DNA from: Actinomycetota bacterium
Lineage (GTDB): Bacteria; Actinomycetota; Coriobacteriia; Anaerosomatales; UBA912
Direction of reading: 5' to 3'
DNA: 64,000 bases
NCBI GenBank assembly: GCA_018334075.1
Contig: JAGXSC010000021.1
Location: 1 to 64,000, forward strand
Position 1 is the first letter of the stretch; every line of letters starts with the position of its first letter. A program made the translations under genes and the position numbers. Below the pieces are notes generated by a model. It was given only the letters and a program-made list of their open reading frames with translations. It was not told the origin of the DNA and made no database searches. Of the stretch, positions 39,366-45,972 are shown one piece after another.

Positions 39366-39536
39366 CACATCTCCTGGTACGGCCACTGTTATGTATCGGC
39401 TAAAGTTGGCGTTGCGTGAAGCGCTGGTACGAATGTGTTGATTTTACCAGTTTCTCCGAAGGAAGCCACTGCGCTGCGCTGGTTCGAGGTGATACCATTG
39501 GCGTTAGCATGGCCAGCTCCCGAAAGGAGGCAGTAA

Positions 39537-40310
39537 ATGTCGACACCGTCACCGGGACAAAGAGCCCCTGAACTTGTGCTCCCGACACATCTCGGAAGCC
39601 AATTCGATCTTGCCGCCGAGCGGGGCAAAAACGTTGTTGTAGTGTTCTATCCGCTCGCGTGGACCCCTGTTTGAACCAGCCAGATTCCCTCGTATCAGGC
39701 GCAACTCGCCAGGTTCGAGGAGCTCAACACCCAGGTCCTGGGTGTAAGCGTCGATCACACACCAGCCCTCATAGCCTGGGCTGAGCACCTGGACGGCATC
39801 ACCTACCCTCTCGCATCCGATTTCTGGCCGCATGGCGCGGTTTCACGGAAGTGGGGAGTCTTCAGAGAGCCGGATGGACACTCTGAGCGCGCTATCTTTA
39901 TTGTCGATCGCGATGGCTTCATTAGGTATGTGGACGTTCATGACATCGATGACCAGCCCGACAATGAAGTGTTGTTCCGGCAGCTCGAGCTAGTTGAGCC
40001 GGATAGGTTGCCGACTCAGCGCGACGCCGAGCCATCACAAGAACCAAATTCCTCGGCAGGCACCGTCGGCGTGGTGATGTACTGCACGCCAGGCTGCTTC
40101 GACTGCATACAGGCTCGTAAGTGGCTCGCAAAGCACGCCATCGAATACGTGGAAGTCGATGTCTCCAGAGATATCGTCGCCCGCGATCGCGCTGCGGCTT
40201 ACAACGAGGGCCGCCTACACACTCCAACTTTCGAAGTCGGCGAACAGGTATGTGTCGACTTTCGCCCCGACAGGCTAAGACAACTGCTCCGGCTCGACCG
40301 CAGCTCGTAA
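39537..40310 (+). CDS. Selenocysteine-containing peroxiredoxin-glutaredoxin fusion (TGA read as Sec at residue 46)
   Basis: AAAGGAGG lies 6 bases before the ATG at 39537, and the frame is open to TAA at 40310 apart from one TGA at 39672-39674. Reading TGA as selenocysteine gives 257 residues: an AhpC/TSA peroxiredoxin (about 1-150) with FYPLAWTPV-U46-TSQ, U exactly at the peroxidatic Cys of the usual TPVCT motif, followed by a glutaredoxin domain (about 175-257) with CTPGCFDC (C183, C187, C190) and the cis-Pro in HTPTF. The peroxiredoxin part has no cysteine, so no resolving Cys; the fused CXXC pair would reduce the selenenic acid. Detoxifies hydroperoxides. A SECIS-like hairpin follows the TGA. 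Confidence 0.88.
39673..39716 (+). promoter_or_regulatory. Candidate bacterial SECIS hairpin
   Basis: Immediately after the in-frame TGA, GAACC (39673-39677) can pair with GGTTC (39712-39716), and inside, GGCG-CAACT-CGCC (39698-39710) forms a small apical hairpin starting 23 bases after the TGA, the distance range of bacterial SECIS elements. The loop does not start with the usual G, so this is a candidate only. Confidence 0.5.
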
Positions 40311-44248: not shown

Positions 44249-44449
44249 ATGAATCGATTGAACGCTTCCGAACAAAGCGCCATCTCCAATGCCGGGACAA
44301 CAGACTCGGCTGCTGGTAACAGAGCACGCAACGGAGATAGGGCAGTGGATGTGGTAACCGCCCACTATGCCGCCGAGGAGCACAGATTCAGGCAGGAGAG
44401 ATTCGCGCAAGCATTGAGGAGAGCGTCCTCGACCAAAGGAAGCTCGTGA
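44249..44449 (+). CDS. Small hypothetical protein upstream of DUF255 gene
   Basis: 66 residues, hydrophilic, rich in Ala, Arg and Ser, no recognised motif. A GGGGG stretch lies 3 bases before the ATG, and its TGA overlaps the GTG start of the next gene by four bases, which argues for coupled translation. Composition is compatible with coding but there is no family support; it could be a leader for the downstream gene. Confidence 0.4.
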   Translation: MNRLNASEQSAISNAGTTDSAAGNRARNGDRAVDVVTAHYAAEEHRFRQERFAQALRRASSTKGSS

Positions 44450-45972
44450 CCGAGGAGTCAGAGCAACCGACTCAAAACCGACTTGCCGAGCAACGATCAG
44501 CTCATCTAGCTGCACACTCGACAGACCTGGTCAACTGGCGCCCGTGGGATAGCCGGGCCTTCAAGCGGGCTGCCAAACTGGGTCGGCCGATCTTTCTATC
44601 GATAGGCCATCAGGCCTGTCATATGTGCCGCGCTATGCAGGTTGATTCTTTCAACGACTCGAGCTTTGCCGGGTTTGTCAATCGCCAGTTCGTGTGCGTA
44701 AAGGTCGATCGGGATCTAAGGCCTGACATCGACTCCTTCTATCAGACGTACGCGGGGGCAAGTACGGGAATCGGCGGGTGGCCGCTAAACGTTTTCCTCC
44801 TGCCTGACGCGCTACCCTTTCTTAGCTGGGCTTACCTGCCAAGAATCGCATCGGAGTCAAGCGGGCCAAGCGCAATTGACGCGGCCGCTTCAGCTATGGA
44901 GTCCTGGATACTTAGGCGAGAGGATGCCGAGGCAGCCGGAGCAGACGCATTGGCGTTGATGCAAAACATATACTCGGTGGACGCAAGTGAGCTTACGGTA
45001 CGCGACGCCGAAGAAGCGGCTGACAGGATTCGCGGGATGCTCGATCTTTCCTTCGGCGGGCTTGGGGAAGGCCCGAAGTATCCTCAGCCTACGGTGGTAG
45101 ACTTCCTACTCGCCTCGCACCAATCCACGAAAAAGTCTTGGCAGTTAGAGGCCGCTTCCCGTTGGGTTCAGTCGATACTCGACGGCGGACTATTTGATCG
45201 CGAGGCCGGGGGAATCTTCCGCTACACCGAAGACAGGGAGTGGCGCAAGCCATCTTCGGAGAAAGCCCTCGGCGATCAGGGGGCGTTCCTGTCTACGTTG
45301 GCCACGCTCCACAAAATCGACAGCGACGACAGTTACCGGCTTGCGGCACAAGCGATCTTCGAGTTCCTGGGGCGTGATCTTTCGCACCCCGAGGGTGGAT
45401 ACTGCTCTGCGGCGGGCAACGTCATCACCTCATACAACGCAATCGCCTCCCGAGGACTGGTAGAGGCAGGCGTCGCATTCGGCGACGACGCTATGGTGAA
45501 ATCGGGCCTGGACACGCTTGAGTGGATACTCTCGACTTGCCTCAAAGGCAACGAGCTCGTGCGCCAGCCTGACGATCGTAGTGTTGCGTCATTGCGCTTC
45601 CTCGAGGATTATGCCGCCACAACAGCCGCCTGCTTGAGCGCGTTTGAGCACACCCGGCAAGAACCGCTGTACGCTGCGGCGAGGCGGCTTCAGGCTAAAA
45701 CTGTCAGGCTTTTCGCCGGCGACTCAGGCTTTGTGGCTGTCTCCGGGAATCATCTCTTGCCCATGGCGCCGATGGAAACAGCAGACACGTCTTACCCCGC
45801 AGCGCCTTCGCTGCTGGCGGAAAACGCTATCCGGCTCAGCAAGCTCTCTGCCGACACTCCTGAAGAGCCGCTGGTTTCACAAGCGCTCGCGCAGTTCGCG
45901 AGGACGATCCTCTATGCGCCGCATCTTGCGGGACACGCGCTTCGAGTGCTCAGGATGCGCAGCGACTCCTAG
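44446..45972 (+). CDS. DUF255 thioredoxin-domain protein (YyaL/SPATA20 family, short form)
   Basis: 508 residues from a GTG. N-terminal thioredoxin-like DUF255 domain (NRLAEQRSAHL, WRPWDSRAFKRA, PIFLSIGHQACHMC with C58-X2-C61, GIGGWPLNVFLLPD), followed by an (alpha/alpha)-toroid region resembling N-acylglucosamine 2-epimerases (LGEGPKYPQPTVVDFLL, DQGAFLSTLATLH). Family members are usually around 650-700 residues; this one lacks much of the C-terminal part, and the usual WCH redox pair is HMC. Cytoplasmic; function in the family is unsettled. Confidence 0.85.
   Translation: MTEESEQPTQNRLAEQRSAHLAAHSTDLVNWRPWDSRAFKRAAKLGRPIFLSIGHQACHMCRAMQVDSFNDSSFAGFVNRQFVCVKVDRDLRPDIDSFYQTYAGASTGIGGWPLNVFLLPDALPFLSWAYLPRIASESSGPSAIDAAASAMESWILRREDAEAAGADALALMQNIYSVDASELTVRDAEEAADRIRGMLDLSFGGLGEGPKYPQPTVVDFLLASHQSTKKSWQLEAASRWVQSILDGGLFDREAGGIFRYTEDREWRKPSSEKALGDQGAFLSTLATLHKIDSDDSYRLAAQAIFEFLGRDLSHPEGGYCSAAGNVITSYNAIASRGLVEAGVAFGDDAMVKSGLDTLEWILSTCLKGNELVRQPDDRSVASLRFLEDYAATTAACLSAFEHTRQEPLYAAARRLQAKTVRLFAGDSGFVAVSGNHLLPMAPMETADTSYPAAPSLLAENAIRLSKLSADTPEEPLVSQALAQFARTILYAPHLAGHALRVLRMRSDS

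Follow-up and report, generated by a model that had tools for sequence, protein, structure and literature searches.

A predicted selenocysteine-containing AhpE-type peroxiredoxin fused to a glutaredoxin in an Actinomycetota bacterium and in Anaerolineae

The locus at 39537-40310 of the window, the whole 64,000-nucleotide stretch analysed here (contig JAGXSC010000021.1 of an Actinomycetota bacterium, order Anaerosomatales, assembly GCA_018334075.1), raises the question of whether an in-frame TGA codon ends a short reading frame or is decoded as selenocysteine (Sec) within a much longer protein, and, if the latter, what such a protein would do. From an ATG at 39537 to a TAA at 40308-40310 the gene runs in one frame in which the TGA at codon 46 is the only internal stop. 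As the original prediction had described, reading through this codon places it exactly at the peroxidatic position of an intact peroxiredoxin (Prx), in the context PLAWTPV-U-TSQ, and the frame runs on through a C-terminal glutaredoxin (Grx) with a CxxC centre. Both domains of the read-through protein are recognised by Pfam above cut-off, AhpC-TSA with 119.3 bits (residues 6-132) and Glutaredoxin PF00462 with 37.9 bits against a cut-off of 22.9 (residues 179-237). A strong ribosome site ahead of the ATG was found as claimed, and the expectation that ordinary gene calling would leave a truncated 126-residue glutaredoxin agrees with the mechanical ORF list, which in the frame of the fusion holds a GTG-initiated ORF at 39930-40310 alone, the peroxidase half being missing. 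The features of the locus are:

39525..39530, + strand: AGGAGG ribosome-binding site, 6 nt 5' of the ATG, read directly
39537..40310, + strand: predicted Sec-AhpE peroxiredoxin-glutaredoxin fusion, complete gene of 257 residues plus TAA, from full-length homologues
39672..39674, + strand: in-frame TGA, predicted selenocysteine U46, the peroxidatic residue (T43-P-V-U46), from homologue codons
39688..39720, + strand: predicted bacterial SECIS hairpin, from the fold, covariation in 42 sequences and absence from Cys homologues
39552..39989, + strand: peroxiredoxin domain, AhpE subfamily, about residues 6-151, from PF00578, the best PDB match (Mycobacterium tuberculosis AhpE, MtAhpE) and Foldseek
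40071..40301, + strand: glutaredoxin domain, about residues 179-255, from PF00462, with sub-cut-off YruB-, mycoredoxin- and NrdH-like matches

A promoter and terminator scan around the gene gave uninformative output. Elsewhere in the window, at 44446-45972, lies a gene for a DUF255/thioredoxin-like (DsbH) protein with the motif HQACHMC; nothing observed ties it to the fusion gene.

The codon found at the position of residue 46 in homologues bears most directly on how the TGA is read. In the alignment, with duplicates removed, this position is TGA in 45 homologues (the window gene, 41 others that are fusions or nearly complete fusions, and three stand-alone genes) and TGC or TGT in five, with no other codon, which is the Cys/Sec exchange that had been proposed as a check. 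Full-length homologues in GTDB are found mainly in Anaerolineae (Chloroflexota); TGA stands at the Sec codon in L009-L014 and L019 (MAG labelled Acidobacteria), and TGC or TGT in L015-L018 and L020. Within the class of the window, five full-length fusions and one match cut near its sequence end were found elsewhere in its order, each with one TGA. Among 396 genomes surveyed from the class that includes Ornatilinea, 34 matches passed E <= 1e-70; every one of them contains TGA, and in those whose sequences were retrieved it lies at the peroxidatic codon. Both halves are kept after the TGA and differences concentrate at third codon positions, so that the decayed downstream sequence named beforehand as a mark of a pseudogene was not seen. 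Phylogenetic analysis of the Prx domain groups the window protein with the Sec fusions of its order (SH-aLRT 96) and unites four Cys fusions in a clade (100) beside Sec members, with the fifth placed elsewhere and many inner branches weak; this clustering suggests at least two Sec-to-Cys changes in the fusion family. TGA also occupies the peroxidatic codon of AhpE-like peroxiredoxins that stand alone (L081, L022, L032, L026, L071 and L088), in Tumebacillus flagellatus and several MAGs. A match on a Phenylobacterium plasmid was rejected as a fusion, being annotated as separate peroxiredoxin and glutaredoxin genes.

The host possesses what Sec decoding would require. Its genome (1.89 Mb, 99.7% complete) carries selA (594 bits), selB and tRNA-Sec (73.9 bits) side by side on one contig (C77), ARAGORN calling the tRNA as tRNA-SeC with anticodon TCA, and its SelD (L090, C61:63-977) is itself of the Sec type, with an in-frame TGA at the active-site codon (SKAG-U-AAKWGP), so all four genes that the original prediction had named for a search are present. 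The host has another likely selenoprotein, a Prx-like protein with the sequence NRTFT-U-PFC (UxxC; L102 1492-1923, corresponding to C9:37349-37801), which probably belongs to the known Prx-like UxxC family. Across relatives, selA and/or selB were found in 44 of 46 genomes with TGA fusions and in one of five Cys genomes, the exception (L020) having both genes and the four clustered Cys genomes neither; Fisher's exact test gives p 3e-4, a descriptive value since the rows are related and kinship is uncorrected. For selB by itself the counts among TGA-form genomes are 15/17 in the first genome set, own-genome search included, and 30/33 in the Anaerolineae survey. In three genomes (G100, G363 and G564) selA is present and selB was not found, and the only TGA genomes in which neither was found are G112 (82% complete) and G605. 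The contig of G564 (L152) exceeds 4.2 Mb and carries the TGA fusion and selA, with no selB at E <= 1e-60; its selB is possibly diverged or split. As a predictor of the presence of the fusion in Anaerolineae selB is uninformative, 22 of 27 genomes without the fusion also having it, and only the contrast between TGA and Cys forms is therefore used here.

A further element expected of a bacterial selenoprotein gene is a hairpin following the UGA, and folding the bases after the TGA had been suggested as a check. The predicted hairpin of the window gene (CCUCG-U-AUC-A-GGCG-CAACU-CGCC-A-GGU-U-CGAGG) folds at -16.4 kcal/mol and presents a loop of 5 nt (39702-39706), 27 nt 3' of the TGA. The published bSECIS model describes a loop of 3-9 nt located 16-37 nt after the UGA, an upper stem, and a G in the first two loop positions (PMC13188914). 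The window hairpin agrees with this model in loop size, distance and stem but departs from the loop G rule, since its minimum-energy loop CAACU begins with C and A; opening of the closing G-C pair would place a G there. Covariation was assessed with a 14-pair version of the hairpin on an ungapped alignment of the 42 TGA genes and 500 shuffles: 75.1% of hairpin cells are paired, 40 cells are changed on both sides compared with 20.2 in shuffles, and the covariation score is 0.210 compared with 0.141. None of the 500 shuffles reached any of the three measures, all three fall when the partner is slid by 1-3 columns, and one pair (18-48) is seen as C-G, G-C, U-A and A-U. Compared with synonymous-codon shuffles, the mean folding-energy z is -2.15 for the 45 TGA genes and +0.59 for the five Cys genes, the Cys homologues thus being without the hairpin in this comparison; for the window gene itself z is -1.3 to -1.4, a stability no more than moderate. 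The SECIS-like hairpin is well supported by this covariation but varies in register, as RNAalifold by itself yields no consensus structure from the 42-sequence alignment, and it rests on the comparison of homologues because Rfam at gathering thresholds gave no match anywhere in the window.

Two other ways of reading the TGA can be set against these observations. If the TGA were simply a stop codon, or arose by sequencing error, the locus would be a pseudogene or a pair of genes encoding a 45-residue stub and a short glutaredoxin, which is how the ORF list, ending at the TGA and spanning the Grx half with its 126-residue GTG frame, presents it. A stop or an error would hardly recur at one codon in 45 genes of separate assemblies with Cys in five others, nor would it leave mainly third-position differences 3' of the TGA, a complete Sec machinery in the host and a hairpin tied to the TGA forms. 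This explanation is very improbable, and pseudogene, stop codon and sequencing error alike were rejected on the homologue codons and the downstream conservation. Translation of the TGA as Trp or Cys through a changed code or near-cognate suppression is more improbable still: the exchange is with Cys only, the tRNA-Sec with its TCA anticodon is accompanied by selA and selB, and four of the five Cys genomes lack both of these genes, so that a changed genetic code was likewise rejected. The product of the window gene is almost certainly a selenoprotein, as judged from these comparisons of codons, genes and RNA folds.

The peroxiredoxin half belongs to the AhpE subfamily by sequence and by fold. 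Its best sequence match in the PDB is MtAhpE (E 2.4e-26), the stretch SDFWPHGAV being common to both; an AlphaFold model computed from 46 family members has pLDDT 91 and pTM 0.77, and the top 12 Foldseek matches of the fusion model are all MtAhpE (36% identity, rmsd 1.5, TM 0.9). The PxxxTxxC/U motif and conserved arginine are found in AhpE-like form as P39, T43 and R118, which are invariant in the family alignment together with C183, C187, C190 and P230, whereas the linker between the domains (residues 152-176) is poorly conserved. The cysteines of the window protein (183, 187, 190 and 239) all lie in the Grx half, so the claim that its Prx part has no other cysteine, and with it a 1-Cys type lacking a resolving Cys in that domain, holds for this protein; as a family trait it fails, since Cys occupies position 77 in 44 of the 50 family members aligned, among them the homologue of Ornatilinea apprima (L011); the residue lies in helix 75-84 and could act as a resolving Cys. 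Ala is encoded at codon 77 of the window gene (39765-39767), and Cys77 is likewise missing from L013, L107 and L109, the one-Sec architecture predicted for the window protein being unusual within its own family. The Grx half is assigned by PF00462, its CxxC and the cis-Pro position, and has the centre Y-C183-x3-C187-F-D-C190 with T229-P230 at the cis-Pro position. More specific assignments were rejected, namely mycoredoxin (TIGR02200, 37.9 bits against a cut-off of 89.5), YruB (TIGR02196, 48.0 against 88.55) and NrdH (TIGR02194, 33.3 against 85.75). The unusual Y-C-x3-C-x2-C centre recurs in close stand-alone glutaredoxins encoded elsewhere in the window's order (L110-L132), and the fusion may have recruited a stand-alone Grx gene of this type.

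The reading preferred here, with a probability of roughly 0.8, is that of a selenoprotein peroxidase in which UGA is decoded as Sec, Sec46 attacks peroxide and the fused Grx resolves the resulting selenenic acid. Docked on the hairpin 3' of codon 46, SelB would bring Sec-tRNA(UCA) to the in-frame UGA, allowing synthesis of the 257-residue protein, and Sec46, set in an AhpE-type active site with T43 and R118, would attack peroxide and form a selenenic acid. As the Prx half of the window protein has no Cys, this acid would be resolved by a thiol of the fused Grx (C187 of C187-F-D-C190), either in the same chain or in another subunit, after which C190 would close a disulfide with C187 and the CxxC disulfide would be reduced again by an NADPH-dependent thioredoxin reductase or a small thiol. 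The host has a thioredoxin reductase over cut-off, and mycothiol is unlikely there given that the best match to MshA in its genome (133 bits against a cut-off of 462) does not exceed the cut-off. In most relatives Cys77 could resolve Sec first; the window protein, with Ala77, would rely entirely on a thiol of its Grx domain or one from outside. In the one-Cys peroxidase MtAhpE the sulfenic acid is reduced by mycoredoxin-1 without an intermediary, or via mycothiol (PMC4360819), and since this separate AhpE is served by a Grx-like protein, the fusion would join a peroxidase to its likely reductant, which suggests a peroxidase and reductant in one chain. The two systems are alike in Prx subfamily, fold and Grx-type reductant, but M. 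tuberculosis has Cys and a separate redoxin where the window protein has a predicted Sec in place of the peroxidatic Cys and a fused redoxin.

The product could also be a selenoprotein in which free thiols, thioredoxin or some other redoxin reduce Sec46, the fused Grx serving other substrates or deglutathionylation-like chemistry. The Cys77 carried by most relatives, through which a selenenylsulfide could form, speaks for this possibility and means that the Grx step in cis may not be general; stand-alone Sec-AhpE proteins (L022, L032 and L081) and Cys-AhpE proteins exist without a fused Grx, relatives have stand-alone Grx genes of the same type, and the variable linker points the same way. Against it, the fusion persists in two distant lineages, Cys forms included, C187 and C190, and also C183, are invariant, the known AhpE reductant is a Grx-type protein (PMC4360819), and the window's Prx half offers no Cys of its own. 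Reduction by another partner is on balance unlikely, though it deserves far more weight than the two other readings of the TGA, and resolution of Sec46 by the fused Grx is favoured. A wider proposal is put forward tentatively, at somewhat less than even odds: the fusions may constitute a distinct Sec-AhpE family of Anaerolineae and the window's order, self-contained through its own three-Cys (C-x3-CxxC) Grx reductant and fed by thioredoxin reductase without mycothiol, with the window protein as a strict one-Sec enzyme wholly dependent on its fused Grx.

Both halves of the protein, and Sec in peroxiredoxins, are already known. PGdx, the Cys-type hybrid of Haemophilus influenzae and its relatives, likewise carries an N-terminal Prx and a C-terminal Grx in one chain, its Prx domain being of the Prx5 type with Cys. 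This hybrid uses glutathione (PMC1361801). The window Prx would differ in its predicted Sec and, as judged from domain scores and structure matches, in type: AhpC-TSA scores 119 bits against 78 for Redoxin, and AhpE is its best structure. Sec peroxiredoxins (PF00578, TxxU) and PrxU share the Sec at the peroxidatic position of PxxxTxxU, a motif given in an inventory of 2026 that covers 119 families and subfamilies of prokaryotic selenoproteins; it has Prx (TxxU) and Grx (UxxC) as separate entries and no Prx-Grx or AhpE fusion (PMC13188914). The PrxU model NF040737 gives the window protein 54.6 bits and does not reach its cut-off of 270, and the HUGP/GUXX-star fusion selenoprotein (NF045501), also a selenoprotein with a Grx-like C-terminal domain, gives 23.6 bits against a cut-off of 325 and names no peroxiredoxin in its family. 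A Sec Prx with a second domain is known from the GOS metagenome, but there the partner is a PP2C-type phosphatase (PMC2398784) and not a glutaredoxin. No model of NCBIfam 20.0 reaches its cut-off on the fusion protein, and searches of the open literature for AhpE or Prx-Grx with selenocysteine gave no description in the titles and abstracts returned. A Sec-AhpE with a fused Grx thus appears undescribed as far as the searched open literature and NCBIfam reach, and the earlier designation of the combination as unrecognised stands within those bounds only.

Selenoprotein genes are mis-annotated by default, and the window gene, which loses its peroxidase half in the ORF list, is a case in point. 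The fusion family would add AhpE-type peroxiredoxins with fused glutaredoxin to the selenoproteome, and would provide a single-chain model of the AhpE-redoxin electron transfer that in M. tuberculosis takes two proteins. The Cys clade without selA and selB would represent a clean example of Sec replacement, and the natural Sec and Cys versions of the same fusion would permit a direct comparison of what Sec contributes.
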